From the IMG/VR virus record IMGVR_UViG_3300032194_000096, positions 1 through 26,682 of that record: 26,682 bases of DNA. One strand, written 5' to 3'. The stretch's first letter is position 1. Each line of letters opens with the position of its first letter. Below, in pieces: positions 2,257 through 18,448 of this stretch. The notes under the pieces were generated by a model that did no database searches, was not told where the DNA came from, and saw nothing but the letters and a program-made list of their open reading frames with translations. Source of the stretch: a virus. Both the position numbers and the translations under genes were made by a program.

Positions 2257-2403
2257 ATGGCACGAAGCAAAGTTGGACTTTCTGGCGGACCTAACATCGA
2301 GTCCAAACCCAAAAAAACGCGACAGGGTTCGGGGCAGCACACGAAATATGCTGCCAGTTCTCGTAATAACAAGCGTAAGCGTTATCGTGGTCAAGGACGT
2401 TGA
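2257..2403 (+). CDS. Very basic 48-aa protein, nucleic-acid binding likely
   Basis: This short ORF starts MARSKVGLSGG and ends KRKRYRGQGR. I count 14 Lys/Arg and only one acidic residue in 48, and it is rich in Gly and Ser, so it should be unstructured and able to bind RNA or DNA (inference). I recall similar short basic proteins with this N-terminal pattern in other T4-like cyanophages, always of unknown function. A ribosome site AGGA (2249-2252) precedes the ATG, and a TATAAT promoter is just upstream. The last bases overlap the TTG start of the 224-aa gene. It may be packaged, or act on transcription or ribosomes; nothing in the sequence decides this. Confidence 0.75.
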   Translation: MARSKVGLSGGPNIESKPKKTRQGSGQHTKYAASSRNNKRKRYRGQGR

Positions 2404-3074
2404 ATTTAATCTGTAATCTTCCTGCTAAAAAGGTATGGGTTCGTAAAGAATATCTAAGAGATCATCAGGACGGTCACGGAGAGTTTGTAGAGGGCGTCTG
2501 GGTATCGGCAAAATCGATACCTGGGCGTGCTTTTTACTTTGAGACCTACCTTCCTGAGTATGGAGCGATGTATGATAAGTTACCTATCAGTGCTTTTCTC
2601 CGAGCGCCGAAAACACCGACGCCAGATTTGTCTTTAGAGAACCTACAGTTTTGGAACTGTATGGATTATGGGGTTACATGCATCAATAAAGGTTTTGTGT
2701 CTTCTATGGATGCAGAGATCTTCACCCGCGACCATGGTTTGATTCATGGTCAATATTTGTTTACATTAGATAACTATCATGCAAACATTGATGTGATAGA
2801 TAATAATGTAAGTGAGACTCCTGCCGAACACAAGAGTCATAATTGCATAGCACTAGAGAATGGTCAGTTTGCATTGTATCCTAATAACAGGATGCGTCTG
2901 TATGACCTCTCTATAACGCCTGAAGCGCCCCGTTTCCCTGATTTCAAGGTATCTACCATAGAATACCAAGTAGAGGCAGGAATCGACTGGGGACGTTTAG
3001 GTGATACTGATGATTATTTTTGGGAAACCAATGCTGAACGAAAACAACGGACGGAGACCAATCATGGGCAATAG
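2400..3074 (+). CDS. Unknown protein, 224 aa, conserved type in cyanophages
   Basis: The frame opens with TTG at 2400, overlapping the stop of the 48-aa gene (GTTGA). No ATG or GTG occurs near the N terminus, so the TTG is the best start; AAGGA (2393-2397) is very close to it and coupled translation is likely. The protein begins MNLICNLPAKKVWVRKEYL and has a conserved-looking centre with GRAFYFETYLPEYGAMYDKL. I recall similar proteins in cyanophages near gp25 and gp6 but no function. It contains no membrane segment and no signal peptide. The C terminus is charged and overlaps the next gene by 11 bases. A role as virion or baseplate assembly protein is inferred only from the neighbours. Confidence 0.75.
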   Translation: MNLICNLPAKKVWVRKEYLRDHQDGHGEFVEGVWVSAKSIPGRAFYFETYLPEYGAMYDKLPISAFLRAPKTPTPDLSLENLQFWNCMDYGVTCINKGFVSSMDAEIFTRDHGLIHGQYLFTLDNYHANIDVIDNNVSETPAEHKSHNCIALENGQFALYPNNRMRLYDLSITPEAPRFPDFKVSTIEYQVEAGIDWGRLGDTDDYFWETNAERKQRTETNHGQ

Positions 3075-3267: not shown

Positions 3268-3657
3268 ATGCCAACGTTTCAAACCTTTAAGGATTTGAAT
3301 ATAACATTTAAGAAGCATCCAAATTCTGATGATTTGGTTGTTATTAAGGATGATGCTGCAATTAAGCAAGCAATCAAGAATCTGTTATTGACAAATGTTG
3401 GTGAAAGACCATTCCAACCTGCTCTTGGTTCAAAAATCCCAAGACTTTTGTTTGAACCATTGGATTACCTCAGTAGTTCATTGATCAAAGACGAAATTAA
3501 AAGAGTTATTGGGACATATGAACCAAGAGTAGAACTCATCAGAGTTGATTGTGAACCAAACGCTGATGAAGATGGTTATGATGTTGATTTTGATGTGAGA
3601 ATCTTAGGGCGTGATAATGTTATATCATTAGAACTATTTCTAGAGAGAACCCGATAA
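3268..3657 (+). CDS. gp25: Baseplate wedge protein gp25
   Basis: This is the gp25/GPW family, a small wedge protein of contractile tails (129 aa here, 132 in T4). The family mark is the central stretch LTNVGERPFQPALGSKIPRL, followed by the helix LFEPLDYLSS and a C-terminal beta part ending in SLELFLERTR. In T4 it sits at the inner wedge beside gp6 and gp53, next to the sheath initiation site. In cyanophages the gene commonly precedes gene 6, as here; in T4 it is elsewhere. It starts 25 bases after a late promoter and ends in TAATG, so its stop overlaps the gp6 start and expression is coupled. Confidence 0.95.
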   Translation: MPTFQTFKDLNITFKKHPNSDDLVVIKDDAAIKQAIKNLLLTNVGERPFQPALGSKIPRLLFEPLDYLSSSLIKDEIKRVIGTYEPRVELIRVDCEPNADEDGYDVDFDVRILGRDNVISLELFLERTR

Positions 3658-5462
3658 TGCCATACGCTCAATTAGCAAATCTAGATTTTGATCAGATTAA
3701 GATTGCTCTTAGAGAATATATCAAGAGCACATCTGATTTTACTGACTATGATTTTGAAGGTTCTGCCCTTTCGGTCATAATCGATACTCTCGCCTATAAC
3801 ACCTACTATACGGCGTTTAATGCCAATATGGTAGTCAATGAACTATTCATTGACTCTGCTACCTTGAGAGACAATGTGGTGGCGCTGGCAAAACAATTAG
3901 GTTACACCCCGAAGTCTATTGTTGCTCCAACAGCAACTGTAACGTTTAATGTAGACTTTACGGGTTCAACACCTGCAAACAATCAAATTGTTTTAGAAAA
4001 AGGCACTGGATTTGTTGCGACATATGATAATAACTTATATCAGTATGTTGTTGTCAATGATGTAAAGCGATCGATCGTATCAAATCAGGCAATTTTTGAC
4101 AATGTAGACATCAAAGAAGGAACTTTAATTACTGATACCTACGTTGTAGATAACTCCAAGAAAAATCAGAGATTCCTTATTGAGAATAGAAACGTGGATA
4201 CGTCCACGATTACAGTAGATGTATACCTCAACGAACAATCTACTGTTGCAGAAGAATATAAACTATCGACAAATATTCTTGGTGTAAACAAAGAGTCCAA
4301 GATTTATTTTGTCAATGAGATTGAAGATGAAAGATATGAGTTATTCTTTGGCGATGGTGTATTAGGAAAGAAACTTGACGATGGTCAGAAGATTGAGGTT
4401 TCTTACTTAATTACCAATGGTCCAGAGACTAACGGAGCAAAAGACTTTACTTTTAGTGGTGTTTTAAAAGATAACATTAATAATACCAACTATCCGTTTA
4501 CAACGTCTATCAATTCGTCCGCTACGGTCGCTGCAAACGGCGGTAACGAGATCGAAGGCATTAAGAGCATAAAGTATAACGCACCCAAGTATTTCGGCAC
4601 ACAGGACCGTGCAGTGACCGCTGGTGACTATGCTGCTATTGTCAGAAATGTATATCCTGCTATCTCTGACATCATTTCTTTTGGTGGTGAGGAGCAAGAA
4701 CCACCTGCATATGGACAAGTCTTCTTGGTGATCAAACCAACCAGTGGTTCTTATTTGTCAACATATACAAAACAGCAGATCAAGTCTGCTTTGAAAGATT
4801 ACATGGTTGCTTCTGTAACTCCTGAAATCTTAGATCCATCTATTTTATATGTCGAACTTGACAGTAAGATCTTCTACGATACAAGAAAGACCAATTTCAC
4901 TAATGAGCAAATCAGATCTGGAGCAATCAATAGTATCGAAGGTTACCTTGCACAGTCAGATACCGAAAAGTTCAATGGTAAATTTAGATACAGTAAGGTA
5001 GTTGGTGTCATCGACGAGTCTGATATGGCAATCAACTCAAACCTGACTAGTGTAATCATGAGGAAGGACTTCTATCCTCAGTTAAATTCAACCTTCTATT
5101 ATGAGGTTTGTTATCAAAATACATTCTTAGATGATGACGATCCCGTTATGAGTTCAACTGGGTTTGTTGTTTCCGAATATCCCAATTATACCGTGTATTT
5201 GGAAGATAGGGTTGGCAAAATCATCCTATATAGAATAGATCCCCTGTCGGGAGAAAAGGTTGTCTTGAACTACTCTCAAGGCGATATTAATTATGAAAAG
5301 GGTGAGATCATGTTATATGATTTAACTATCATCAAAGGTAGTTTTAATGACAATAGAATTGAACTTAGAGTTCTTCCTAAGTCCAATGATATTGTTGCAA
5401 AACGCGAGGTTTACTTAGACGTAGACATTGCAAAAAGTAAATTCCAAGTATATCAAGAGTAA
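3657..5462 (+). CDS. gp6: Baseplate wedge protein gp6
   Basis: gp6 forms the dimeric ring of the wedges, the core of the baseplate (Baseplate_J family). At 601 aa it is near the size of T4 gp6 (about 660). The N terminus shows DYDFEGSALSVIIDTLAYNT and NELFIDSATLRDNVVALAKQ, the conserved first helical domain. Residues around 300-325 carry the J-type signature NAPKYFGTQDRAVTAGDYAA. The C terminal part is beta-rich. The ATG overlaps the gp25 stop. The stretch at about 4500-4630, coding for the J signature, uses more C- and G-ending codons than its surroundings. Function in the wedge together with gp25 and a gp7-type protein is established for T4. Confidence 0.95.
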   Translation: MPYAQLANLDFDQIKIALREYIKSTSDFTDYDFEGSALSVIIDTLAYNTYYTAFNANMVVNELFIDSATLRDNVVALAKQLGYTPKSIVAPTATVTFNVDFTGSTPANNQIVLEKGTGFVATYDNNLYQYVVVNDVKRSIVSNQAIFDNVDIKEGTLITDTYVVDNSKKNQRFLIENRNVDTSTITVDVYLNEQSTVAEEYKLSTNILGVNKESKIYFVNEIEDERYELFFGDGVLGKKLDDGQKIEVSYLITNGPETNGAKDFTFSGVLKDNINNTNYPFTTSINSSATVAANGGNEIEGIKSIKYNAPKYFGTQDRAVTAGDYAAIVRNVYPAISDIISFGGEEQEPPAYGQVFLVIKPTSGSYLSTYTKQQIKSALKDYMVASVTPEILDPSILYVELDSKIFYDTRKTNFTNEQIRSGAINSIEGYLAQSDTEKFNGKFRYSKVVGVIDESDMAINSNLTSVIMRKDFYPQLNSTFYYEVCYQNTFLDDDDPVMSSTGFVVSEYPNYTVYLEDRVGKIILYRIDPLSGEKVVLNYSQGDINYEKGEIMLYDLTIIKGSFNDNRIELRVLPKSNDIVAKREVYLDVDIAKSKFQVYQE

Positions 5463-5468
5463 GATTAG

Positions 5469-8400
5469 ATGGTCGTAAAGAATAGGAGCATCTCTCATTT
5501 AATTGAGGATCAATTACCTGAATTTATCGTAACCGATTATCCACTATTTGCTCGTTTCTTGGAGAAATACTACGAGCAAGCAGGATCTCGTGGGCAGCCA
5601 TTTGATATTCTCAATAATCTAGAAACATATAGAGATATTGATTTCTATGAGGAGTCTTTGCTAGATCAAAGTTCCCCTTTGGTTGGAATTATCAACAATA
5701 CCGATTCTACTATTGAAGTAGAAGATGCGTCTTCATTCCCTAGTAAAAACGGTTACATCAAAATCGATGATGAAATTTGTTTTTACAAAGAAAAGCAAGG
5801 TAATGTTTTCTATGATGTTTCCAGAGGAGTAAGTGGAAACACCAAACTAGGAGATCTTTACACTGAAAGTGAATTTGTTACCACTCAGGCAGCAGCACAC
5901 TCTGGAACTGAAGTATACAATGTAAGCAATCTGTTCTTGTATGCATTAGTCAAAAACTTTGAACTCGATTATCTCGATTCATTTCCACAGAAATATTTGA
6001 AGCAAGAAATTGATAAGAGGACACTTATCAAGAATATTTCTAATTTTTACAAAGTAAAGGGAACCGAGACTTCAATCAAGTTTATTTTCAACACGATTGT
6101 TGCTAGGGATTCTGATAATGTTCCTACAACATATAACCCAAAAGACTTCACTTTAAAGTCTTCTACTTCTGATTGGACAACTGCATATTCTTTAAAAGTT
6201 AAAATACTTGGGGGTGACCCACAGGACCTTATTGGAAATAGAATTACACAAAATAATGGTGATTTAGGATTCTCTTCTGCGGTAGTTGATAACGTAAGAC
6301 CAATCGGTGGATCACCTGATGAACAGATCCACGAAGTCATTCTAAACCAGTCAACTGTCAATGGAACGTTCAGGATTGCATCCCGAACTGAACTAGAAAA
6401 AGACATTCCAGAAACAACATCGAAAGGAGATTTAGTAACAGTTCAATCAACTGTTGGATGGAAGAGGTTTGGAAAGTTTATCGTCAACAACGAAACCTTT
6501 GAATTCAATGATAAGAATGTAAAACAGTTTACATTACTTGGCAGAGATGGTTCTGCTACTCATGCTGCAGGAACATCTGTATATGATTATGCTCCAGCAG
6601 TATACCGCGATTTTGAATTAATTGTTTTTGGCGTCTTATATGACCTAGAAACTCAAAGTAATTCGACTTACTCTCTACCTGGAGATCCAGTTCAATCAAC
6701 TCTTCCTGGATTTACCACAAAAGATAGAATCATTTATGATGTTGTAGATGAAGCAGTTCGTTGGAGAGTCAATTTAAACAATGCATATCCAACTGCAGTG
6801 ACTAATAATGTATTGCAACCTGAGTTAATAAAATATCTCGGTGGTGTATCTGCAATTTATGAAGATGATCAATTCTACTATATCTGTTCATCTGGATATC
6901 CAACTTATGATATTCTAACTGCTGCAAGTTCTGGAACTCTTTCTGATGCAAAGAATTTAAAGATTGTTAGAAAGAGACCAACTCAAACAACAGAGATTTA
7001 CAAAACCACTAATACTTCGGTAGGTGTGTTCTTAGATGGAACTATTGCTTATAGTTTTAGAGATTCTGATCTTGTAAAATTTGGCAGTATTCAAGAAATT
7101 GAAGTTACTCAAAAAGGATCTGGATACAAAGCAGCACCTTATGTTCTAGTTAATAATCAAGCAGGAAAAGCAAGAGCATTCTTAAGTGGCGAAACAGTTG
7201 ATAGAATTGTATCACTTGATGATACGTCATATACTACTGATCCAGAAATTACAATCACTTCTGGTAGAAATGCAAAAGTTCGTGCTATTGTCACTAATGG
7301 AGCGGTAACGAGTCTCGTAATTGAAAATCCAGGAGAATATTACTCTTCACCTCCTATTGTAAGAATTACTGATAGAAGTGGAAGAGGAAAGTTTGCATCT
7401 TTCAATGCAATTATTGATAATGATGGTAGATTAGTTGATTTTGAAAGGATTGAGACTGGAAGACTATACACTCAAGAATTTGTAAAGGTTGAGATAATTG
7501 CAGAAGGTAATTTTGCAGAAGCAGAAGCAAATATCAGAGAATGGGTTAAGAACAGATATTCTGTTGAACAATCTTTATTGGATCAAAATGGAGGAACTTT
7601 ATTTGACAATACCTTCACCACTAACAAAAAACTTTATGGTGTTATCAGTAATCCACGAAGACTTCGTTTATTACTAAGCGACAATATTCAAAGTAATCTA
7701 TCAGAAGCAAATATACTAGCACACTCTCCTATAATTGGATATGCATATGATGGCAATCCGATCTATGGTCCTTATGGATATAGCGACCCAGGAGATTCGT
7801 CCTCTTCTATTTCCAGAATGATTTCTGGATACTCTTTGAATAATTCAAGAACTGGTGGTCCTTCGACTACAACATATCCATTAGGAACGTTTATTGATGA
7901 TTATACATGGAGTAAGAGTGAACTGACTGGTAAAACTGCTCTCGATGAAAACAATGGTAGATATTGTGTAACTCCAGAGTATCCTGAAGGAACATATGCA
8001 TACTTTGTCACCATCACTGCGACTGGTCAACCTGCATATCCATACATTTTAGGAGAAAATTATTATTCACTTCCAGTTGCTTCAAACTATGATCAATCTC
8101 TAAATCAAGATGATCTGCCTACTGATATTAGCAGATTGAATGTTAATAACACTTTAGATGCTAGTGGATTTAATTCTATTGCAACAATTAGATCGACAAC
8201 TAGAGGTTCTGTAAGTGGCGCAAATGTTGAGGTCAAAAACACTACACCACGTTCTTTTTCTGTGGATTGTGTAGTAGAAATTGATGACTCTTCAACAAAA
8301 GGTGTAGGAGCTCTTGCAACTATTAGTGAAGTTACAGGAGAGACGATTGACAAGATTGAGTCTGTTCAGACAAAATCAGTAAAAATTAATACTATTCGTC

Positions 8401-11400
8401 CAATTTATTTCTTCGATGGTGATACTGTCACTCAAGGAACTACTACAGGAACTGTTGTTGGCGACTCTTTCAATACAAATGAGTTTTTATTGAGAAATGT
8501 AAGTGGAACTTTCAATGCCACTGATAGAATTAAGTCCAATAGAACTATTATTAACGTAATTGTTGATAAAGAATCTGAGTATACAAAAGGATCTACTATT
8601 TCTTTATTTGATGGCATTGATAGCATCATTGCTACTGCAACTGTTTTAGAGTCTACTAAAGGACAAAACGCAGTCAAACTCCAGGTTTTAACTGGAAGTT
8701 TTGTTGTTGATCCATCTTATAGTTTAGTTAGCAATCAAATTACAGATACCAGTGGTTCAAAAATATTATCTGTTATTTCTTTGAGTAGTGATGTAGATGT
8801 ATTTTCTGTTGATGATAATGTAATTTCTGTATTTACAGATGCTGATCACAACCTTTCTGTTAATGATACCGTAAATGTATCTGTAATTCCAGATGATACT
8901 ACTACAGAAACCGTTTATTACATTAGAAAGAGAAGATTCCAACAAGTAAAACTACAATCACCAGAATTTGCTTCGACTATTAGAGATACTGGTATTGGTA
9001 GAATTGATACCTTACTTGCTGGAACTGATTATGCAAACACTACCTATGGTGGTGGAACCTTTACAGATGTTGAAGTTATCTTTACAAATCCAGACTCCGC
9101 AAGAAGTGCTACAGGTCAAATTGTAGGTTCTGGTGCTGGAACTACTGCAGTTCTTGGCAATGAAGGTGGAGAGAGAAATGCTAGAGCTACGGTTACTGTA
9201 GGTTTTACTAAAGTTGTTGAGAGTGTAATTAACTCCACAAAGACCATCCAGGTAGACGATATCGATAATGTATATGTTGGACAGAATGTAAAAGGTGAAA
9301 ATATTGCAGCAAATACTGTTGTTCTTTCTATAGATTCTGCAAATAGAAAAGTAACTCTAACAAATCCAGATACAACTAACATTTTTACAGGGAATGTAAA
9401 TTTTGCAATCTTCAATCCTGGTGTCATTTCCAATGTTGTTATCACTACCAGAGGAACTACTTACAGAAAAGGTGATTTAATTTCATTCAAAAATTCTGAT
9501 GTAGATAAACCAACTCTAGCAATAACTAGAGATTTCATTGGAATTATTGATCATGTTGGATATTCTGTATCTGATTCTACGCTAAGATTAACCAGTGCTA
9601 GAGGTCTTTCTAAAGATGACTTACTGCAAGTAGGTTCGGAAATTGTTAAAGTATTGAGTGTAGACCTAGAAAATAATCAGGTTGAGACTATAAGATCTCA
9701 AAACAATACTACTGCTTCTGATCATTTCAATGGTTCATCGGTAACTTTAATCAATCCACAATATAGATTCAACGTTGGATATCGTCCATCTGGAAATACC
9801 AACAGTGATCCATTTGTATCTTCTTATGATCCAGTAACTCAACTACTAACAGTTTCTTTTGCTTATAGTCAATCATCAGTAACTGAATTGTCATTGAGTT
9901 CTGTTTTCAATGATCAGAGTGTTCCTGCTAAACCTGTTAGAATAGTTAAACTAGAGTTTGTAAACAATAAGTTTGAATTTTCTCCCGAAGATGTTGAAAA
10001 TACATTCACAGAACTACAAACTATAGAACTTCAAAATTATTACAAATACAAATTTGATACTTCACATAGTTCTATGGCAAACACATACTTGGAATTTTCT
10101 CCAAGTATTAACAAAAATATTATTGCACTTGATAGTTTTAGAAACAGCATTGCTCCAGGAAATGCAGGATCATATATTACGCTAAAACCAGGAGCAAACT
10201 TTGGTTATTTGGGTAATGGATTTACTACTGTTAGCAGCAGTGACACCATTCAAGGAAATTCAACAATTAATACTGAAGCAAGTTATAAGACCAGTTTTAC
10301 TAATTATTATTTCTTTGATAAAAATGGCGATGTAGAGACTGCAAATCAGTCATTTACCATTGTTCCTGATTCATTAGAAGGAGAAAAGGAAGTAATATAC
10401 AAGACTAATAATGTATTTGTATATTCATACGATAAACCACCACAATATGATGGTTCTGGAACCATGTCATATACCACTAGTGGAAAATCTGCTATTGGTC
10501 AACCACATGCAATTAAAATTGATAACGTTGGAGAAGGGTATGACATTATTCCCCCAGTTCTTGGTATTCTTCCATCGGAAGAAAATAGAGCAACGTTAGA
10601 ATTAACATATGATAATCTCAATAATAACATTGCAAATGTTGTTGTTAAAGAAGGTGGATCTAAGTATAGAAAACCAAAAGCAATTATTGATGGCAATGGT
10701 CTCAGAGCAGAGATTGAATTGGTCAATCAAAATGGATCCATTGTTTATGCATATGTTACAAATAAAGGATTTGATTATACCGAACTACCAGAAGTAAGAG
10801 TCATAGAGACTGATGTAGACTGTTATTTGGAGTCTAATGATATTGGAGTTCCAGAATCAGTTGAAGTTACTTCTAGTGGATTCTTGTTCAATACGGATAC
10901 TTCACATAGAAGAAAGTATTTTTCTAATACTCAATTAAGGATTTCTAACTTTGAGCAGAAAGCATTTTCTGTTGGTGAAAAAGTCACACAAGAATACCTT
11001 GGCGTGGAATATGCTTCTGGTGTTGTTTCTAAAAATGGTTTTAGACAAGGAACAAATATTCTTAGATTAGAGTCGGTAACTGGAGAGTTTATCAAGGGTC
11101 TTACTATTAAAGGTAGTGCAAAAAATAACACTGCTAAAGTAGAAGAAATCTCTGTATCTGAGTTTAGTCCATCTATAAAATCTTTCTCTGACAATATCGG
11201 TTTTTACACCTCAGATAGAGGAAAACTCAGTCATTATACTCAAAGAATTACAGATTCGTATTTCTATCAAGACTATTCATATGTAATTAAATCAAAGACT
11301 CCAATTAATGTTTGGAGAGATTTGATTTTGCAAACAACTCACCCAGCAGGATTTAAAGTATTTGGCGAAGTAATTGTCAATACTGAGCAAAAGAGCAGTA

Positions 11401-14400
11401 TCAAGAAGGGTGGAGCAGTAAGTTGCACAAAGATTGATTTGAGTGTTCCTCAAATTTCACAACATAATCAGTTTAGAACTATTCAGCAGTCATTCGTCAA
11501 TTTCAACAATATTGATGAACAGTATGGTGCTGGAACAGTATATGTCAATGCTCAGAATAATACTGAGACATATGCAACTGAAATTATCCTTAATACTCCA
11601 TTTGATGGTGTAATCGACCCTGTTACTGGCGTTGTATCTGGAACTAAGACGTTTGTAATGATTGATAAGTCAACAAACTTACCAATCACGCCATTCAATG
11701 AGCAGCAATTACTAGTAACTATTGATGGTGTAGTCCAAGAACCAGGAGAAGCATTTACTGTAAGTGGATCTAACATTACATTTGCAGTTGCTCCTCTTGG
11801 AGAAAACACCGTAGAGTCTCAAGTTGTTCCAGCACAAAAATTCCATTGCAGATCATTTAGATTTAAGCGTGATGATCTTAATACAGAGTATCTGAAGAAA
11901 ATTAGAAACTTCTTCCAAAGAGGTGGTAGATGGATTGATTCTGCAAATCAGATTAAATTTAACAAAGACTTTATTGTAGAAGAATCGATTGGATATGCAA
12001 TTGAGACTCATCCAAATGTTCCATGGAACATCTATGAGCAGAAATGTTCTAGAGATATTAGACTTATCTTGGATGCTATCGAGCATGATATTAGATTTGG
12101 CGGAAACAGAAAGGTTCATGAAGCAGGTTCTTCATACTTCTTGTCTACCAATGCATTAGATCATATTGATAATGAACTTACTGAAAGTTTAGATACATTC
12201 AAGTATGCAGCGAAATTATGTTCTGCTGCTCTTAGAAACTGGGATTACACTGTAACAAATGCTGTCATTACCCCAACATCTAATGTAATTACAGTTCCAG
12301 ATACATTTGGAATTGTTGTTGGAATGAACGTAAGCAGTGGATCACAGTTCCCAGAAGATACAAAAGTAACAGAAGTTGTCAATGATACTCAAATTAGAGT
12401 CTCTAGCAATGCAAGAATAGCAGCATCCACTGCTTTAGTGGTGACAACTGGATCGACAGAAGTCATTTCAGTTGACACTACTGTTACCACTGTTGTTAAC
12501 GAAGGCAACATTGAAGTTGGAACTGTTTCTGTTGCTAGCGGTGGAACTACGACGTTAACATCTACCTATTCGGTTAATAACATTCCTCAAGCAACGTTCT
12601 CCTTAAGTAAGATCAATAATGGCACATTCTATGATGCTTCTAATCTAATTGAAGCAAACAGAACTTACATTCAAGAAGAAACTATTGGATGGGTCAAGAC
12701 AACGTATCCAACATTACAAATCCCAGATGAAACCAAGTGTAAGAGAGACACTGGTCTTTTAGTGGATGCTGTTGTCCACAACTTACGTTTTGGTGGCACC
12801 ACTAAAATTGTAGATTTTGCGAAGTCTTATTATATTGGCAATAGAGTAAAGCATATTAACAACGAACTTGCAGAGTCCGTAGCAGCATACAAATTTGCAG
12901 TTTCTCTTATGGTTCTTGCCATGAGAGGATCACTACCTTCTGGAAATTACACCAATGAAACTCCATATTATGACACAAATATTCTAGATGATCCCAATCA
13001 GTATTTCCCACAGTGTGCTGAGGTAGAGTCTGCATTGAATTCTTATGCTGGAATTATTGACACTCTATTGATGGATGGTATTGGTTTGATACAACCAGAA
13101 CCAGAAAATAATCAAAGAGCAGGTAATTGGACTACTAGGAGAACGTATTCCAATTACAATTTAATCCCAGATCCACTCTTGCTAGCAGAGGAGTGCAATA
13201 ACGTCGTAGAGTCAATCAAGTCTCTTAACGGTGTCCTAGACGGAGTTCTCAATAATGGTCCAAATTCTGTTCCAAAAACAAATCCAGACTTCATTGATGG
13301 TGAGAATACCGATTTTGAATTATACTATGAAGGTGGAGCAAGAGTAAAAACCGCACCAAGTGAAGACCTTCTCGTATTCATTAATGGTGTTGTTCAGTTA
13401 TATGATAGTTATGATATCATCAGATCTGAAGATCCATTAGTTCCTGATATTATTCGTTTCTCTGAAGCTCCAAGATGGGAACAAGAAGACAACGTATTAA
13501 CTGTTCAGGAACCTCTTGCCGTTGATAAAACGTTTATCGTTAGAACAGGAAGTTACGAAAAGGCAGTCATAGACAGCGATTTGGTTCGTATCAAAGGAAC
13601 TGGTCCTTTCCCACTATATGATTCTGAGGATGGAAAGATTAAGTATATCGATGATGACAGATATGCTTACGTTTTCGTCGATGGTGTATTCCAGAGAAGA
13701 GGAGATTCTTATGTTCAAAGTGGTTCTACAATCACATTTAAGAAACCTCTTGTTTCTACTACCTTAGAGGATGGAACTACTGTTGCAAATAGAGTCGATG
13801 TTCTCGTATTATATGGTAGAGATTTAGATCAGAAACTCACATTCTACGATTTTGAACCAGAAACATATGTAAACGAAGTTACTTTAACAATTACTGAAGA
13901 AGAAACTTTACCATCATATCCAACAACTGCAGATCTTTCTGTTTGGTATTTTGTTAATAACAGAAGATCTGATGTATATGTTTATGAATTGATCAGTGGA
14001 AGCACAACTAACTTCCAGATACTTGGCAATTTCAAGTATTCCGAATTTACAGAACCATATGTATCTAATTTAATTCTTGGTAGTAGGTGGAATCTATATG
14101 ATATTCAACCAGATTCTGTTATTGTATTGTCTTCTGCTCCTACTTGGTATGATGTTGTTCAACAATACAACAATCCTTCATTGAGAACTTTGGAGTTTAG
14201 AGCATATCAATTAGATGGTGATCTAGTCGCAACATTTGATTATTATAAAAATGTTGATGACGAGAGACTTCTTACCAGAGATGCTATTGCTCTATTCTAT
14301 AAGAGACCTGGCGGAGCAAGAGAATATTGGGATGAAAAATCTGGTCCATTCGTCAACCTGAGACCAGGAGATAAAATTAAAATTGATGGCGAAAAATCTC

Positions 14401-16541
14401 GCAGAACTATTACAACTATTCCTGATTTTGCTAAAACACGAGATTTTAGACCAGGAGAAGAAGTTCCGAACTTTATTCAGGCAGAATTAACTGCTACTGG
14501 ATATAATGGATATACTGATGGTGAAGGTCTTGCTGCAGTGGCAGAAGTAGATCCTGTTACTGGAGGAATCACAAAACTAGTTTGGAATAAGAGAAACTTA
14601 CAATTGTATGTTGAAAACAATTATAAGGACAAACAAACTGCTTATGGTTATGTTACTGCTCCATTCTTGAAATTTGTTCCTAGAGATGAATTTGGTGGTG
14701 GTGCAAGAGCAGAGGTTCTAGTTATTGATGGTGATGTTGTTGATGTTTATATCACAGATCCTGGATCTGGATACACCCAACCACCTCAGGTAATCACTAC
14801 TCGTGGATACACAAGAATTAAAGAAAAGAAAGTATCTTATGGCATTACTTTCAGATTCCTTTACAGACTTGATCTTCGTGTATTCTTACCACTTCCAAGT
14901 GCAGAAGTTACTCTAATTGTTGGTGGCGTCCAACCAATTGTATACACTTCTTTCGAGATTCTCGATTCTCCAAAAGAAGCATCGAGACAGATTACTCAGG
15001 AAATCTATCCATATGTAGAACTTCCTGTTGGAGAATTTACAATTCTTCCAAATGTAGATCCTGTATTTACTACTTCATGGACCGCTCCTGTTGGTGAAAT
15101 TCCTCTCCCAGACGCACCAGAAGTTCCTTATACAAAGGTTCTAACTACGGTCGATCTAGATCTCGATATCGCTATCGATGTAGATGATACTTATAGAAGA
15201 GTTACTGAGGTAATTAATCCTTATATTGAACCATATAACGAGTTCAATCTCCAAAGATTTATTACATCTGGATGGACTACATCATCTTCTGACAAGACTA
15301 TGCCAGAAGCACCAGAAGACACTAATACGTGGGTTTCTGTAACGGTAAGACCAGAAGTTATTGATTCTGCGGTAGCTGCTGAGACAACTATTAAGTTTGT
15401 CGAAGAGATTCATCCATATATTGAACCATACACTCAACTTGGAATCAATCCATTCATTACAACAGCATATAAGTCTTTTGCAGATATTGATTCGGATCAT
15501 GATACTTTCACTTATATTAAGACTGCGGTCAAACCAATTTCTACTGATGTAACTCTATATTCTGATAGAACTTCCAGATTTATTACTGGCATTATTTCAC
15601 TTGAAACTGCTAAGGTTCCTGAAGCAAATGCTTTAGATTCAACTCAGGACATTGGAACAATTCTTTCTGCTCCAATGTCTGATACAGCAGACTACGCTTA
15701 CATCCTAAGCACTGCAAGATTCCCAGATGAAGGAAGATTGTTCATTGGTGATGAGTTTGTATCTTATGCAACTAAGCAAGAAGGTCGTATTCTTGATGTA
15801 GAAAGAGGACTGTTTGGAACAACCATTCAGAATCACCCTGCAGGTGAGTATATAAGACTACTAACAGAAACTGTTACTGTCCTTCCAGAGTCTGGAATCT
15901 CTGGTGTTGTTGAAAGTGAAATCAACCTTGTTACTGTCACAGAAGCACCAACTAAGGTCACCAGTATTATTTCTACGTCTGCTGTAACAACTGTTACAGG
16001 CACTGAAATTCAAATTACAAGACAATCATCTACTGGTGCAGTAGATCTTCGCTATGAGACTAATTTGAAGGGAGATCATTATACACAAGCGGTTCTAGGA
16101 ATATCAACTCATACATTTGGTAATGTATTTGTTTCTCAACTTGATTTTGGTCATCTAGATGTAATTCCAGATTTCGATAGTATTGAACAGTTTGATTGGT
16201 ATTACCCTGGATTGACTATTGGAGATACTAGAGTTTCTTCCACCGTTGATAGTCATGGAAATCCATTTGATTATGTTCTTCCTTCTTTTAACAATCCTAT
16301 TACTACTGTAGCAGGATCTCAACAAAATACTGCATCAATTAGTCAACTTAATGTTGCAACAACTGCAGGATTCCATACCGAAGGTCATCTATATATTACT
16401 GAGGAAGGTGTTGGGGATTATACTGTAATTCATTACACTGGTAAAACCGCGACGGCGTTTACTGGCGTCACATTTGTAAGAGGTTCTACCACCTTTGTTG
16501 AGGTCGATGCTTTAATCATCCCACACGCAATAATATACTAA
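5469..16541 (+). CDS. Giant baseplate wedge protein, gp7-like by position (3690 aa)
   Basis: One uninterrupted ORF of 3690 codons lies between genes 6 and 8, the place of T4 gene 7 (about 1,030 aa). Residues 1-265 contain FLEKYYEQ, EIDKRTLIKNISNFYKVKG and SIKFIFNT, which resemble the part of T4 gp7 where DKR, a KGIE helix and KFLF occur (compared from memory). A second block, residues 1929-1975, has SYVIKSKTPINVWRD and HPAGFKVFGE, resembling YYVMKIKSNLP and HPVGFGF of gp7. Between and after them lie inserted modules: glycine-tyrosine beta repeats (541-680, 1680-1781, 3073-3111), a YHYH-type domain (752-867), a duplicated helical domain (2158-2259, 2390-2487), NGVxQ modules and an IxPYIEPY repeat (3173-3337). 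No signal peptide or membrane segment is seen. It starts six bases after gp6. The ORF is certain; the gp7 role is an inference. Confidence 0.9.
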   Translation: MVVKNRSISHLIEDQLPEFIVTDYPLFARFLEKYYEQAGSRGQPFDILNNLETYRDIDFYEESLLDQSSPLVGIINNTDSTIEVEDASSFPSKNGYIKIDDEICFYKEKQGNVFYDVSRGVSGNTKLGDLYTESEFVTTQAAAHSGTEVYNVSNLFLYALVKNFELDYLDSFPQKYLKQEIDKRTLIKNISNFYKVKGTETSIKFIFNTIVARDSDNVPTTYNPKDFTLKSSTSDWTTAYSLKVKILGGDPQDLIGNRITQNNGDLGFSSAVVDNVRPIGGSPDEQIHEVILNQSTVNGTFRIASRTELEKDIPETTSKGDLVTVQSTVGWKRFGKFIVNNETFEFNDKNVKQFTLLGRDGSATHAAGTSVYDYAPAVYRDFELIVFGVLYDLETQSNSTYSLPGDPVQSTLPGFTTKDRIIYDVVDEAVRWRVNLNNAYPTAVTNNVLQPELIKYLGGVSAIYEDDQFYYICSSGYPTYDILTAASSGTLSDAKNLKIVRKRPTQTTEIYKTTNTSVGVFLDGTIAYSFRDSDLVKFGSIQEIEVTQKGSGYKAAPYVLVNNQAGKARAFLSGETVDRIVSLDDTSYTTDPEITITSGRNAKVRAIVTNGAVTSLVIENPGEYYSSPPIVRITDRSGRGKFASFNAIIDNDGRLVDFERIETGRLYTQEFVKVEIIAEGNFAEAEANIREWVKNRYSVEQSLLDQNGGTLFDNTFTTNKKLYGVISNPRRLRLLLSDNIQSNLSEANILAHSPIIGYAYDGNPIYGPYGYSDPGDSSSSISRMISGYSLNNSRTGGPSTTTYPLGTFIDDYTWSKSELTGKTALDENNGRYCVTPEYPEGTYAYFVTITATGQPAYPYILGENYYSLPVASNYDQSLNQDDLPTDISRLNVNNTLDASGFNSIATIRSTTRGSVSGANVEVKNTTPRSFSVDCVVEIDDSSTKGVGALATISEVTGETIDKIESVQTKSVKINTIRPIYFFDGDTVTQGTTTGTVVGDSFNTNEFLLRNVSGTFNATDRIKSNRTIINVIVDKESEYTKGSTISLFDGIDSIIATATVLESTKGQNAVKLQVLTGSFVVDPSYSLVSNQITDTSGSKILSVISLSSDVDVFSVDDNVISVFTDADHNLSVNDTVNVSVIPDDTTTETVYYIRKRRFQQVKLQSPEFASTIRDTGIGRIDTLLAGTDYANTTYGGGTFTDVEVIFTNPDSARSATGQIVGSGAGTTAVLGNEGGERNARATVTVGFTKVVESVINSTKTIQVDDIDNVYVGQNVKGENIAANTVVLSIDSANRKVTLTNPDTTNIFTGNVNFAIFNPGVISNVVITTRGTTYRKGDLISFKNSDVDKPTLAITRDFIGIIDHVGYSVSDSTLRLTSARGLSKDDLLQVGSEIVKVLSVDLENNQVETIRSQNNTTASDHFNGSSVTLINPQYRFNVGYRPSGNTNSDPFVSSYDPVTQLLTVSFAYSQSSVTELSLSSVFNDQSVPAKPVRIVKLEFVNNKFEFSPEDVENTFTELQTIELQNYYKYKFDTSHSSMANTYLEFSPSINKNIIALDSFRNSIAPGNAGSYITLKPGANFGYLGNGFTTVSSSDTIQGNSTINTEASYKTSFTNYYFFDKNGDVETANQSFTIVPDSLEGEKEVIYKTNNVFVYSYDKPPQYDGSGTMSYTTSGKSAIGQPHAIKIDNVGEGYDIIPPVLGILPSEENRATLELTYDNLNNNIANVVVKEGGSKYRKPKAIIDGNGLRAEIELVNQNGSIVYAYVTNKGFDYTELPEVRVIETDVDCYLESNDIGVPESVEVTSSGFLFNTDTSHRRKYFSNTQLRISNFEQKAFSVGEKVTQEYLGVEYASGVVSKNGFRQGTNILRLESVTGEFIKGLTIKGSAKNNTAKVEEISVSEFSPSIKSFSDNIGFYTSDRGKLSHYTQRITDSYFYQDYSYVIKSKTPINVWRDLILQTTHPAGFKVFGEVIVNTEQKSSIKKGGAVSCTKIDLSVPQISQHNQFRTIQQSFVNFNNIDEQYGAGTVYVNAQNNTETYATEIILNTPFDGVIDPVTGVVSGTKTFVMIDKSTNLPITPFNEQQLLVTIDGVVQEPGEAFTVSGSNITFAVAPLGENTVESQVVPAQKFHCRSFRFKRDDLNTEYLKKIRNFFQRGGRWIDSANQIKFNKDFIVEESIGYAIETHPNVPWNIYEQKCSRDIRLILDAIEHDIRFGGNRKVHEAGSSYFLSTNALDHIDNELTESLDTFKYAAKLCSAALRNWDYTVTNAVITPTSNVITVPDTFGIVVGMNVSSGSQFPEDTKVTEVVNDTQIRVSSNARIAASTALVVTTGSTEVISVDTTVTTVVNEGNIEVGTVSVASGGTTTLTSTYSVNNIPQATFSLSKINNGTFYDASNLIEANRTYIQEETIGWVKTTYPTLQIPDETKCKRDTGLLVDAVVHNLRFGGTTKIVDFAKSYYIGNRVKHINNELAESVAAYKFAVSLMVLAMRGSLPSGNYTNETPYYDTNILDDPNQYFPQCAEVESALNSYAGIIDTLLMDGIGLIQPEPENNQRAGNWTTRRTYSNYNLIPDPLLLAEECNNVVESIKSLNGVLDGVLNNGPNSVPKTNPDFIDGENTDFELYYEGGARVKTAPSEDLLVFINGVVQLYDSYDIIRSEDPLVPDIIRFSEAPRWEQEDNVLTVQEPLAVDKTFIVRTGSYEKAVIDSDLVRIKGTGPFPLYDSEDGKIKYIDDDRYAYVFVDGVFQRRGDSYVQSGSTITFKKPLVSTTLEDGTTVANRVDVLVLYGRDLDQKLTFYDFEPETYVNEVTLTITEEETLPSYPTTADLSVWYFVNNRRSDVYVYELISGSTTNFQILGNFKYSEFTEPYVSNLILGSRWNLYDIQPDSVIVLSSAPTWYDVVQQYNNPSLRTLEFRAYQLDGDLVATFDYYKNVDDERLLTRDAIALFYKRPGGAREYWDEKSGPFVNLRPGDKIKIDGEKSRRTITTIPDFAKTRDFRPGEEVPNFIQAELTATGYNGYTDGEGLAAVAEVDPVTGGITKLVWNKRNLQLYVENNYKDKQTAYGYVTAPFLKFVPRDEFGGGARAEVLVIDGDVVDVYITDPGSGYTQPPQVITTRGYTRIKEKKVSYGITFRFLYRLDLRVFLPLPSAEVTLIVGGVQPIVYTSFEILDSPKEASRQITQEIYPYVELPVGEFTILPNVDPVFTTSWTAPVGEIPLPDAPEVPYTKVLTTVDLDLDIAIDVDDTYRRVTEVINPYIEPYNEFNLQRFITSGWTTSSSDKTMPEAPEDTNTWVSVTVRPEVIDSAVAAETTIKFVEEIHPYIEPYTQLGINPFITTAYKSFADIDSDHDTFTYIKTAVKPISTDVTLYSDRTSRFITGIISLETAKVPEANALDSTQDIGTILSAPMSDTADYAYILSTARFPDEGRLFIGDEFVSYATKQEGRILDVERGLFGTTIQNHPAGEYIRLLTETVTVLPESGISGVVESEINLVTVTEAPTKVTSIISTSAVTTVTGTEIQITRQSSTGAVDLRYETNLKGDHYTQAVLGISTHTFGNVFVSQLDFGHLDVIPDFDSIEQFDWYYPGLTIGDTRVSSTVDSHGNPFDYVLPSFNNPITTVAGSQQNTASISQLNVATTAGFHTEGHLYITEEGVGDYTVIHYTGKTATAFTGVTFVRGSTTFVEVDALIIPHAIIY
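5730..5930 (+). repeat. DxEIxxY…RGxxG…HxxGxxV module, copy 1 of 5
   Basis: Residues 88-154 of the giant protein. The pattern is GYIKIDDEICFY, then DVSRGVSGN, then AAHSGTEV. It recurs at 6450-6605 (FIVNNETFEF, GRDGSATHAAGTSV), 9591-9758 (QVGSEIVKV, RSQNNTTASDHFNGSSV), 15708-15872 (LFIGDEFVSY, VERGLFGT, HPAGEYI) and 16356-16532 (LYITEEG, IHYTGKTATAFTGV, FVRGSTTFVEV). This small beta module, reading roughly I-x-D-E-x-x-x-Y to R-G-x-x-G-T-x-x-x-H-x-A-G-x-x-V, is common in phage tail proteins. Confidence 0.6.
6450..6605 (+). repeat. RGxxG…HxAG module, copy 2 of 5
   Basis: Residues 328-379. FIVNNETFEFNDK is followed by LLGRDGSATHAAGTSVYDY. The R-D-G-S-A-T-H-A-A-G run is close to the family pattern. 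Confidence 0.55.
7089..7508 (+). repeat. GSGY beta-repeat array in the giant protein
   Basis: Residues 541-680 hold about four units of the form (beta strand)-G-S-G-Y-x-x-x-P-x-V-x-(I/V): VTQKGSGYKAAPYVLV, DDTSYTTDPEITI, ENPGEYYSSPPIVRI and ETGRLYTQEFVKVEI. Between units lies an alanine-rich strand plus a turn such as TNGAVTSLVI. Related units are at 10506-10811 and 14685-14801 in this ORF, and in gp8 and the DUF4815 protein. Confidence 0.7.
7722..8069 (+). other. YHYH-type domain without its histidines
   Basis: Residues 752-867 carry the marks of the YHYH domain: HSPIIGYAYDGNPIYGPYGY, then ALDENNGR and TPEYPEGTY, then PYILGENYY. The family-defining Tyr-His-Tyr-His is replaced by Y843-A844-Y845-F846. 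The fold is probably kept, while any metal-binding function of the two histidines would be lost. Confidence 0.75.
9591..9758 (+). repeat. SEIVKV…HFNGSSV module, copy 3 of 5
   Basis: Residues 1375-1430. LLQVGSEIVKVLSV and TIRSQNNTTASDHFNGSSV follow the same order as the other copies, but RG is replaced by RSQ. Confidence 0.5.
10506..10811 (+). repeat. Glycine-tyrosine beta repeats, second array
   Basis: Residues 1680-1781 contain three units: DNVGEGYDIIPPVLGI, KEGGSKYRKPKAII and TNKGFDYTELPEVRVI, with intervening strands such as RAEIELVNQNG. They have the same spacing as the array at 7089. Confidence 0.65.
11709..11795 (+). repeat. NGVxQ beta module, copy 1 of 3
   Basis: TIDGVVQEPGEAFTVSGSNI followed by TFAVAP is the common phage tail-fibre pattern V-x-(I/V)-(N/D)-G-V-x-Q-x-P-G-x-x-(Y/F)-x-V-S-G-S-x-I-x-F. 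The second copy is at 13368-13472 (FINGVVQLYDSYDI, IIRFSEAP) and the third at 13662-13748 (FVDGVFQRRGDSYV, SGSTITFKKP). Confidence 0.75.
11940..12245 (+). repeat. Duplicated helical RFGG domain, copy 1
   Basis: Residues 2158-2259. Order of landmarks: IVEESIGY, KCSRDIRLILDAIEHDIRFG, SSYFLSTN, HIDNELTESLDTFKYA, AALR. Copy 2 follows at 12636 with the same order and nearly the same spacing. Confidence 0.8.
12636..12929 (+). repeat. Duplicated helical RFGG domain, copy 2
   Basis: Residues 2390-2487. Landmarks IQEETIGW, KCKRDTGLLVDAVVHNLRFG, KSYYIGN, HINNELAESVAAYKFA, LAMR match copy 1 one by one. The copies are about 130 residues apart and clearly diverged, so the duplication is old. Similar RD-x-x-x-(I/L)-(L/V)-DA domains occur in other cyanophage fibre-type proteins (recollection). 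Confidence 0.8.
13368..13472 (+). repeat. NGVxQ beta module, copy 2 of 3
   Basis: LLVFINGVVQLYDSYDI, then IIRFSEAP. It is longer than copies 1 and 3 because of a short insertion between the Tyr and the IIRF strand. Confidence 0.65.
13662..13748 (+). repeat. NGVxQ beta module, copy 3 of 3
   Basis: YVFVDGVFQRRGDSYVQSGS followed by TITFKKP. Spacing is the same as in copy 1. Confidence 0.7.
14685..14801 (+). repeat. GSGY beta repeat, third site
   Basis: GGGARAEVLVIDGDVVDVYI is followed by TDPGSGYTQPPQVITT. This is the most regular GSGYTxPPxV unit in the giant protein. Confidence 0.65.
14985..15479 (+). repeat. IxPYIEPY repeat, three units
   Basis: Three units lie at 14985-15086 (ITQEIYPYVELPVGEF, then FTTSWTA), 15195-15284 (VTEVINPYIEPYNEF, then RFITSGWTT) and 15393-15479 (FVEEIHPYIEPYTQL, then PFITTAYKS). 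Each consists of a short helix or strand ending in (E/V)IxPY, a proline turn and a T-rich strand, separated by acidic, proline-rich linkers. I know no family with this pattern. Confidence 0.7.
15708..15872 (+). repeat. IGDExxxY…RGxxGT…HPAG module, copy 4 of 5
   Basis: Residues 3414-3468. RLFIGDEFVSYATKQEGR and DVERGLFGTTIQNHPAGEYI give the best match to the consensus of all five copies. Confidence 0.7.
16356..16532 (+). repeat. Copy 5 of the module, C terminus of the giant protein
   Basis: Residues 3630-3688. HLYITEEGVGDYTVIHYTGK and FTGVTFVRGSTTFVEVDAL; the HxAG part is missing, so the copy is degenerate. It forms the C terminus of the 3690-aa protein. Confidence 0.5.
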
Positions 16542-16609: not shown

Positions 16610-18448
16610 ATGCCTGCAATTATTTCAGATAAATTTAGAATTTTTAACGCGAAGCAGTTTATCGAGTCTTTAACCGAAGGCACTACAGCGGGGTCGGGTG
16701 GTGATCCTGAAGTTGGTGACGAAAGGACGAGACTTTACTTCTTCGTTGGTCGCCCCCAAAGATGGGATGCATTCATTGAGATCTATTCTCAATCAGGTGG
16801 TAGTTTCGCCGTTGGTGATGAAGTATACATCGGTGCTAACTACGCAACAGGTTCATTCAAAGGCATTGTAAGACAAGTTTTCCAAGATTCACTTCTACTC
16901 TATAACATCAATGGCACACAAGGCGTTGCTAGTGTTCCAACAGTAGGACAAACACTAGAAACCGCAGGTGGTGCTCAGGCAAAGGTCGGTATCTACAGAT
17001 ATGCAACCGATGAAGCAGCACCTCTTCCAGTAGACAACCAAGAAGAGAAGTATTCTGTATATGATGATATCATTGCAGCAAAGAGAATCACCAATGATTA
17101 TGTAAGAACTGTAATTAAGAGATATAACTGGCAGACTAACACCACATATGATATGTGGAGACCAGATTATTTCTCAACTCAAACAGGTAGAGTTGGTCTT
17201 CAGTCCGCTACTGGTGCTAACACCATTGGCGAAGCAAAGTTCTATGTCATGAACCAACAGTATCAGGTATTCAAGTGCCTCTACAATGGAACTGACTTCT
17301 CTAACCTCAACGGTCAAGCATCCACTGAAGAACCTTCACTAACTCCTTCTGCTGGAACATATGATTCTGCTACAGGCATCTATGAAGAGTCTGGTGGAAC
17401 ATATAAGTGGAAGTTCATGTATACCATGTCAACCGATGACGTTCTAAGATTCCTATCTACTGACTTCCTGCCAATCGTTCTTCCTACCGACCCAACCAGA
17501 GTTGACACTGCATCTAAGGTTGTTGTTGGTGCTATCGATGCATATATTACCACTGATACTGGTTCAAACATCAATGCTACCAATGGAACCTATTATGCTC
17601 CAGTAAATGGCGATGGTTCTGGCGCTATTGTTGCTCTAACCCTAGATAGCGGTTCGATCACAAATGCAGTAGTTCAAGAAAGAGGATCGGGTTATACTTA
17701 CGGCACGGTCGCAATTGCAACAGGAACAGGATCGGGTGCAACTGCATACGGTCTATTTGACGATGCTGCTCTAACTTCAAGTGCTAGCGTTAACGCTGGT
17801 GCAACTGGTAAAGTTGAAGTTATCCTACCTCCACAAGCAGGTCACGGTGGAGACATGGAACTCGAACTCAATGGTAAGCGAGTTATGACCAATATTCGTC
17901 TCTCTTATGACGAAGGTTTCGGTGACTTCCCTGTTGATAACGACTTCCGTAGAATCGGTATTATCCGCGATCCTTACGAGAGAGGAACTACAACTTATGC
18001 AACCGCAGATACTCTAAATGGTCTAACCGCATTTAGAATCACTGGAACAGGTGCAGACTACATCGTAGATGAAGTCGTTACTCAAGCTGTAACTGGTGGA
18101 ACTGCAAAAGGTCAGGTCGTTTCCTGGACTCCAGATGCTGCAGGAAGCCCAAATGGTATTCTTAAGATCTTCCAAAGCGTTGACTATCACCAAGACAACG
18201 GTGTTGTAAGAGCATTCGATGAATCTCTTGCTGCAAACCTTGATGGTGAAACCTCTCTTGCAGATGGAAGTATCGACAATACTTACAACCAAGCAGCAAG
18301 TGATACCCTATTCGGTAGTTTCACCAATGGTGTTTCTCTTCCAGAAATCGAACAGAACTCTGGAGATGTCATATACATAGAGAATAGAAGACTAATCACT
18401 AGAGCTGCTGACCAGATTGAAGATATCAAGCTAGTTATCGAGTTCTGA
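16610..18448 (+). CDS. gp8: Baseplate wedge protein gp8, enlarged
   Basis: The C terminus SGDVIYIENRRLITRAADQ followed by IEDIKLVIEF matches the end of T4 gp8 (SGEMIYMENR…AMDQTEEINILFTF, from memory). Other shared points are the N terminus SDKFRIFNAKQF, FFVGRPQRWD, NTTYDMWRPDYF, GGTYKWKFMYTMS with LPIVLP, and FRRIGIIRDP. T4 gp8 has 334 residues; this protein has 612. The extra length lies mainly in a GSGY beta insert (residues about 334-383) and a second beta-rich insert (about 475-560), plus an insert near 60-125. gp8 is a dimeric wedge protein that binds gp7 and gp10 in T4. It follows the gp7-like ORF as in T4. The start has a good ribosome site and its own late promoters. Confidence 0.92.
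   Translation: MPAIISDKFRIFNAKQFIESLTEGTTAGSGGDPEVGDERTRLYFFVGRPQRWDAFIEIYSQSGGSFAVGDEVYIGANYATGSFKGIVRQVFQDSLLLYNINGTQGVASVPTVGQTLETAGGAQAKVGIYRYATDEAAPLPVDNQEEKYSVYDDIIAAKRITNDYVRTVIKRYNWQTNTTYDMWRPDYFSTQTGRVGLQSATGANTIGEAKFYVMNQQYQVFKCLYNGTDFSNLNGQASTEEPSLTPSAGTYDSATGIYEESGGTYKWKFMYTMSTDDVLRFLSTDFLPIVLPTDPTRVDTASKVVVGAIDAYITTDTGSNINATNGTYYAPVNGDGSGAIVALTLDSGSITNAVVQERGSGYTYGTVAIATGTGSGATAYGLFDDAALTSSASVNAGATGKVEVILPPQAGHGGDMELELNGKRVMTNIRLSYDEGFGDFPVDNDFRRIGIIRDPYERGTTTYATADTLNGLTAFRITGTGADYIVDEVVTQAVTGGTAKGQVVSWTPDAAGSPNGILKIFQSVDYHQDNGVVRAFDESLAANLDGETSLADGSIDNTYNQAASDTLFGSFTNGVSLPEIEQNSGDVIYIENRRLITRAADQIEDIKLVIEF
17609..17758 (+). repeat. GSGY beta repeat inserted in gp8
   Basis: Residues 334-383 of gp8: GDGSGAIVALTLDSGSITNA, then VVQERGSGYTYGTVAI, then GTGSGATAYG. 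It has no counterpart that I recall in T4 gp8 and has the same pattern as the repeats in the giant protein on its left. Confidence 0.7.

Follow-up and report, generated by a model that had tools for sequence, protein, structure and literature searches.

We found that the 3690-residue open reading frame (ORF) between gp6 and gp8 in the stretch of DNA analyzed here, a 26.7-kb IMG/VR virus record referred to below as the window, is very probably the gp7 baseplate wedge protein of a T4-like cyanophage, with a conserved core of about 190 residues split by inserts that would contribute to a large outer layer of the baseplate. The isolates nearest to the window are Synechococcus myoviruses, e.g. S-H9-1, S-RIM44, Syn1 and S-PM2. 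ORF scan and translation showed that the reading frame starts with ATG and contains no internal stop. The gene order is gp25-gp6-ORF-gp8 followed by a VrlC-like gene (Table 1), so that within the tail cluster the ORF occupies the genome position of T4 gp7, flanked by gp6 and gp8. An earlier note on this sequence had placed an ORF of this size between genes 6 and 8; its intactness and the identity of both flanking genes were confirmed, the latter by Pfam and PHROG profiles. Directly upstream of gp25 lie a gene for a PAAR-type spike tip (1922-2218) and a ferredoxin-like gene (2400-3074; phrog_3704).

Table 1. Features of the window, with short relatives in the last row (coordinates in the window unless a locus is named; residues of the 3690-aa protein).
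Feature	Coordinates	Strand	Support
gp25 baseplate wedge / sheath initiator	3268..3657	+	phrog_261, E 5e-49
gp6 baseplate wedge	3657..5462	+	PF21379 (E 2e-18), PF21387, PF21871; phrog_219
gp7 homologue, 3690 aa, single ORF	5469..16541	+	gp6/gp8 flanks; core HMM E 7e-23
gp7 core part A1, residues ~10-66, helix region, T4 gp7 ~648-705	5496..5666	+	core HMM i-E 1.4e-14; profile A4 on T4 647-760
Insert 1, ~100 aa, residues ~67-157; absent in T4, Moby, L204	5667..5939	+	core HMM and A4 alignments
gp7 core part A2, residues ~158-241, DKR...KGTETSIKF motif, T4 ~702-762	5940..6191	+	core HMM i-E 1.4e-17; hhalign to T4 702-789
Insert 2, ~1670 aa, residues ~242-1911; beta-rich modules, GxGY-type repeats	6192..11201	+	distance between core blocks; split common to 45 viral contigs
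YHYH domain (PF14240) within insert 2	7716..8024	+	Pfam E 6.8e-28
gp7 core part B, residues 1912-1974, YYQDYSYVIKS...HPAGF, T4 848-894	11202..11390	+	core HMM i-E 1.3e-24; hhalign 36 vs shuffle maximum 29.3
C-terminal extension, ~1716-1720 aa, residues 1975-3690	11391..16538	+	translation and survey
Phycobiliprotein-like domain 1 (likely), residues ~2135-2255, CSRD at 2193	11871..12233	+	PF00502, 30.7 bits vs cut-off 22.2; profile vs PDB E 1.9e-4; AlphaFold/Foldseek
Phycobiliprotein-like domain 2 (likely), residues ~2385-2536, CKRD at 2424	12621..13076	+	repeat of domain 1, i-E 4e-18; AlphaFold helices
gp8 baseplate wedge	16610..18448	+	phrog_438, E 2e-162; PF09215
VrlC-like large protein, separate gene	18491..26641	+	phrog_358, E 2e-202; S-PM2 synteny; function label by synteny
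Minimal gp7s (291-314 aa), uncultivated T4-like phages	L204:2989-3864, L208:205-1089, L212:133-1074		Pfam PF23786

In this protein the gp7 core is cut twice, leaving the three parts A1, A2 and B. The position of A1 was taken from the domain list of the core HMM described below, in which two HMM domains overlap in the window, S-PM2, Syn1, S-SCSM2R and the pelagiphages. The earlier note had claimed two separated blocks with gp7 motifs, and both exist: KGTETSIKFI lies at residue 197 and HPAGF at 1958, a spacing of 1761 residues, whereas their equivalents in T4 gp7, KGIEASYKFL at 738 and HPVGF at 884, are only 146 residues apart. We compared an alignment of T4-type gp7 with profiles of 37 tiles of 250 residues, which span the ORF and include S-PM2 and Syn1. 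The best scores fell on exactly the two motif blocks and in the right order, with E-values of 0.002 and 0.0036 against at least 0.017 for block-free tiles, and the tiles holding the blocks aligned to T4 gp7 732-755 and 862-892. With deeper alignments, hhalign scored both blocks at 36.0, above the maxima of 28.7 and 29.3 reached in 150 column shuffles.

Profiles were needed for this comparison, because a single-sequence phmmer search of the full ORF against the PDB returned nothing at an E-value of 1; direct tblastn of the T4 gp7 core against phages reached cyanophages only at E 4-9. Compared with short relatives (Moby, Mosig and others), window block A gave an E-value of 6e-21 and block B 2.5e-20, and the short relatives matched the T4 gp7 family at 2.4e-7. 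A core HMM built from only three short environmental gp7s, in which the blocks are contiguous, found the window ORF at both blocks (E 7e-23) and T4 gp7 at residues 652-759 (E 1.4e-6), with no match in 12 controls (T4 gp5, gp6, gp8, gp9, gp10, gp11 and gp53, and five other window proteins). We then searched 177,635 PDB sequences with profile A4, which comprises 54 rows covering both blocks and their relatives and from which the T4 sequence was excluded. The only significant matches were T4 gp7 (2.4e-8) and gp7 of Klebsiella phage KP1 (1.4e-7), the next one standing at 0.26. Blocks A and B lay in order on both proteins and on T4 gp7 corresponded to residues 647-760 and 854-892, which bears out the expectation that they would match adjacent parts of gp7. 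Among 1,147 ORFs of at least 150 residues from the loci fetched, the core was present in 220, each locus having just one intact ORF with it, and was found only in the gene after gp6.

Block B is the weaker of the two. Its own match to T4 in the A4 search of the PDB had an i-E of 0.85, and when HMMs of the window alone were compared with T4-family gp7s, a single shuffled decoy scored comparably to block B, while A2 was clear of all 606 decoys and A1 was not separable from them. Block B is convincing because of the short relatives and the order of the blocks. Taken together, the helical core-bundle block of T4 gp7 (~647-762), the HPxGF block (~848-894, less strongly), their order in one chain and their uniqueness in the locus were all recovered, and at the level of sequence the core is gp7.

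The likeness to T4 gp7 (PF21428/PF21427/PF21456; PDB 5HX2, 5IV5) consists in the position between gp6 and gp8 and in the core, present in the same order. In contrast to T4, the window protein has about 1670 residues between the core blocks, where T4 has about 60-85, and adds a C-terminal extension of roughly 1720 residues. The N-terminal arm of T4 gp7 (domains I-III, residues 1-640) was undetected in the window ORF by profile, Pfam and tile searches, and Pfam gave no match there to domain V (PF21427) or VI (PF21456). In the region of domain V, hhalign alignments of the short relatives extended partially over T4 766-829 and that of the window to 789, without a Pfam PF21427 match. Since short relatives, among them L204 and Moby, likewise lack the arm and domain VI, we regard these as parts of the T4 lineage and limit the gp7 claim to the core.

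Several short relatives show what the core looks like without its large insert. Six environmental loci (L204, L208, L209 and L212-L214) encode gp7s of 291-314 residues in which block B follows directly on block A (...DILKPSDGKWDAANQRWLNDDGKLSVKKFIQDSRFYQSFSYVIKTGQTIDFWRDSVKTLLHPAGFAFFGQV). The smallest, the 291-residue protein of L204, has nearly touching blocks and lies in the order gp25-gp6-gp7-gp8-VrlC. It exceeds the cut-off of Pfam PF23786, 'Phage baseplate wedge subunit' (34.4 vs 27 bits), as do other short relatives, whereas the full window protein stays below it (21.6 vs 27 bits). Neither PF23786 in Pfam nor PHROG 26741, 17744 and 2885 is linked to T4 gp7 by name. The group also includes a 503-residue protein of Stenotrophomonas phage Moby, flanked by gp6 and gp8, and an 874-residue protein of pelagiphage Mosig. 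These bare gp7s have the core in common with the window; unlike the window, they keep it contiguous or split by 0-790 residues and lack the giant C-terminal extension. Because relatives with contiguous blocks exist, the 1.67-kiloresidue stretch of the window is an insertion relative to a conserved core.

Insert 2 forms a graded series: none in L204, ~61 residues in T4, ~245 in Moby, ~355 in pelagiphages, ~505-600 in L195 and L198, 787 in phiM19, ~1570 in S-PM2 and Syn1, ~1600 in MA10, 1670 in the window, 2150-2340 in S-CAM9, ACG-2014f, S-B05 and P-HM2, and 2700-2820 in S-RIM2, S-SZBM1 and S-SSM4 (the last ~2820). The same gene and split architecture as in the window are found in S-PM2p084, Syn1_094, P-HM2 gp7 (PHM2_086), S-RIM2 SWTG_00060, S-SSM4 CYXG_00059 and S-SZBM1_208. 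These giant cyanophage relatives differ from the window in the length of insert 2 (1570-2820 residues), in their C-terminal modules and, for some, in insert 1, which reaches about 600 residues in S-RIM2, S-SZBM1 and S-SSM4. The earlier note had proposed a gp7 core stretched by an insertion of more than 1,600 residues and continued by a C-terminal extension. The insertion is upheld, with L204 providing the empty site, and the proposal has to be amended by the further insert of about 100 residues within the first block.

Giant ORFs of metagenomic contigs can be chimeric, and the long insert between gp7-derived blocks could in principle stem from chimeric assembly or a frameshift artefact, or be a mobile element, intein or intron, that is left unspliced. 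In one relative the reading frame is indeed broken: the pelagiphage-type gp7 of L117 (841-2710 and 2713 onward) is interrupted between the insert and block B, which leaves the core halves in separate ORFs through either a sequencing error or a real split. For the window we consider such an origin most improbable. Forty-five viral contigs, some of them near-duplicates and the metagenomic loci overlapping in origin, have the window's split within a single frame, their inserts measuring 1550-1664 residues; its retention in these contigs shows that it is not an assembly artefact. It also occurs in the isolates S-PM2, Syn1, S-RSM4, P-HM2 and others, and a 6,619-residue relative has been found in virions at 13.5% coverage. 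Finally, the insert shows graded lengths and contains YHYH and beta modules, and the Pfam scan reported neither an intein nor an endonuclease domain. Within the YHYH region, 60-70 bases (7944-8014, residues ~826-849) are 86-89% identical to a stretch of a different gene in the otherwise diverged phages S-SSM4 and S-SSM6b, in S-SSM4 the gene CYXG_00062, annotated as a baseplate wedge subunit. This nucleotide identity suggests either strong constraint or an exchange of modules between baseplate genes.

Structure prediction added little to the identification of the core. AlphaFold was run on the natural contiguous relative L204 and gave a model with a pLDDT of 48 and a pTM of 0.25, which is unsurprising because T4 gp7 is interlocked with two copies of gp6. 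In a Foldseek search with this low-confidence model, 5iv5, 9f4a and 9gtp ranked 1-3 among 350,542 chains, with E-values of 0.057, 0.11 and 0.58. By their length, the 5iv5 chain (T4, 1004 residues) and the 9f4a chain (KP1, 1031 residues) are gp7; 9gtp is a contractile injection baseplate. The ranking of this predicted model is supporting, not decisive, and the proposed docking of the two blocks into one fold gained only this much: gp7s come first, from a model that is itself weakly informative on docking.

The core bundle and the trifurcation of each wedge in T4 and similar machines are built from the core of gp7 and two gp6 copies (PMC6300606, PMC10457771). By inference from this arrangement, in each of the six wedges the window core would most likely be anchored together with a pair of gp6 copies, the gp6 encoded in the window being the expected partner in a (gp6)2-gp7 heterotrimer. 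The inserts and the C-terminal extension would leave the core via permissive loops and build a large outer baseplate layer with adhesion-type modules, which may take over the roles of the T4-specific 640-residue N-terminal arm and of separate peripheral T4 proteins. The most economical reading would be that peripheral and adhesion modules have become part of the gp7 scaffold chain itself. Minimal wedge scaffolds whose loops carry other components are known: XM1 gp17, a gp7 orthologue of 242 residues, attaches tail spikes through its internal loop 80-106 and its C-terminus, residues 201-242 (PMC10457771), and TssG of the type VI secretion system (T6SS) uses two loops to bind TssK trimers that are similar to phage receptor-binding proteins (PMC6300606). 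The orthology of XM1 gp17 and TssG is taken from the literature. Their loops measure about 30-40 residues and bind separate proteins, whereas the window inserts are of kiloresidue size and covalent; that insert 2 of cyanophages sits at the loop used by XM1 and TssG would be an analogy, without a superposition.

The presence of a relative in virions is documented: S-SZBM1_208, a protein of 6,619 residues, was represented by 71 peptides with 13.5% coverage in purified virions (PMC9146016). Its gene lies between gp6 (_209) and gp8 (_204), and it carries the gp7 core. That the inserts are surface or host-contact modules is our inference. They might instead serve as internal spacers or stabilizers of a double-layered baseplate, a reading that accepts the gp7 core and that we hold to be possible, if the less probable. 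Baseplates of Kyanoviridae and pelagiphages are called two-layered in the literature, the inserts consist of beta repeats among which only YHYH was recognized as a possible receptor-binding domain, and a LamG lectin domain was detected only in the S-SZBM1 relative; against this, the analogous loops of XM1 gp17 and TssG carry receptor-binding trimers or trimers resembling receptor-binding proteins. We therefore retain an outer layer with adhesion-type modules as the preferred, though inferred, reading.

The C-terminal extension contains two helical, mutually related domains that resemble phycobiliproteins. The window segment exceeds the PF00502 (Phycobilisome) cut-off, and 12 of 13 orthologous segments match the family; the full-length window protein scores 21.8 bits, and domain 2 scanned alone had no Pfam match. 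Elsewhere, PF00502 scored 52.7 bits in a region of S-SZBM1 and 35 in S-RIM2. When a profile of the repeats was searched against the PDB, phycobiliproteins made up nearly all of the 60 best matches and the alignment spanned the bilin cysteine, whereas a reversed-sequence control retrieved no phycobiliproteins (best E 0.08). The AlphaFold model of residues 2120-2569 (pLDDT 68, pTM 0.53) had a predicted phycobiliprotein (globin-like) fold: its best 49 Foldseek matches in the PDB were all phycobiliproteins with probabilities of 0.97-1.00, but at E-values of only 0.04-0.23.

CxRD is the bilin-attachment motif of phycobiliproteins, and some cyanophages carry the bilin-synthesis genes ho1, pebS and pcyA. 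Two of the 12 cysteines among the 3,690 residues stand in CxRD, compared with 0.03 such motifs expected by shuffling, and the motif falls at the aligned bilin position, where 33 of 45 aligned repeats have a cysteine and the rest have none. By tblastn the domain occurs in 344 phage records, of which 343 are named cyanophages and one is an unnamed marine virus; phycobiliprotein-like repeats are present 2-7 times in other cyanophage gp7s and also in separate cyanophage tail proteins. Among such repeats in S-SZBM1_208 (L220:22309-27111, minus strand) is a lectin domain of the LamG/concanavalin-like type (PF13385, E 4.5e-17).

Given the Pfam, profile, Foldseek and CxRD evidence, homology of the C-terminal domains to phycobiliproteins is likely, and they probably derive from host light-harvesting proteins; binding of bilin can at most be inferred. 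They share with phycobiliproteins the Pfam score, the predicted fold and CxRD, and differ in being repeats embedded in a viral structural protein, with the cysteine lacking from some of the repeat copies. That virions carry host-derived phycobiliprotein domains on gp7 which bind bilins through CxRD, with the bilin-synthesis genes partly serving the virion, is a speculation to which we give little credence. We found no report of phycobiliprotein-like domains in a phage baseplate in the open-access literature.

Published accounts of gp7 in these phages differ. Sullivan et al. (2010) assigned gp7 to the non-cyanophage core, anticipating that divergent copies would be found (PMC3037559), the DLP6 paper listed cyanophage gp7 orthologues at 4-7% identity (PMC5349666), and a 2020 study of pelagimyophages stated that gp7 is absent from pelagimyophages and cyanomyophages and that VrlC substitutes for it (PMC7029224). 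On the strength of the first and last of these, the ORF could be some other large baseplate or tail protein, VrlC having replaced gp7 in cyanophages and pelagiphages. We give this almost no weight: the core is confined to the gene that follows gp6, a PDB search matches it to T4 gp7, and VrlC is a separate downstream gene in both the window and S-PM2 with no core HMM match, for which reason it was also rejected as a gp7 candidate. Since gp7 and a VrlC-like gene are both present in the window, gp7 has not been replaced by VrlC, and as far as sequence comparison can decide, replacement is refuted. Two further candidates were set aside. S-SZBM1_205 (615 residues), labelled 'baseplate wedge initiator', had no core match, and a gp7 split over two genes in Melnitz-1 was dismissed, both blocks being in MelnA while MelnB (repetitive, 294 residues) has no core block.

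The earlier note had expected the split to explain an apparent absence of gp7 from cyanophage gene lists. The gene is there, and annotation had not missed it entirely: records already carry the labels 'gp7' (P-HM2), 'similar to gp7' (S-RIM2) and, in others, 'baseplate wedge initiator'. The name thus has precedents; for the splitting of the core, the series of empty-site relatives and the profile-based demonstration we found none in the open-access literature.

Our results locate a structural gene that had been missing from viruses ranking among the most abundant in the ocean, and correct the published view that gp7 is lacking in cyanophages and pelagiphages or has given way to VrlC. They indicate that a universal wedge scaffold of about 190 residues has grown, through inserts at two or three permissive points, from proteins of 291 to about 6,900 residues, and the graded insert lengths offer a natural series for structure work. 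The likely phycobiliprotein-like domains, apparently unreported, would link phage structure to host photosynthesis genes in a way that is open to simple bench tests.
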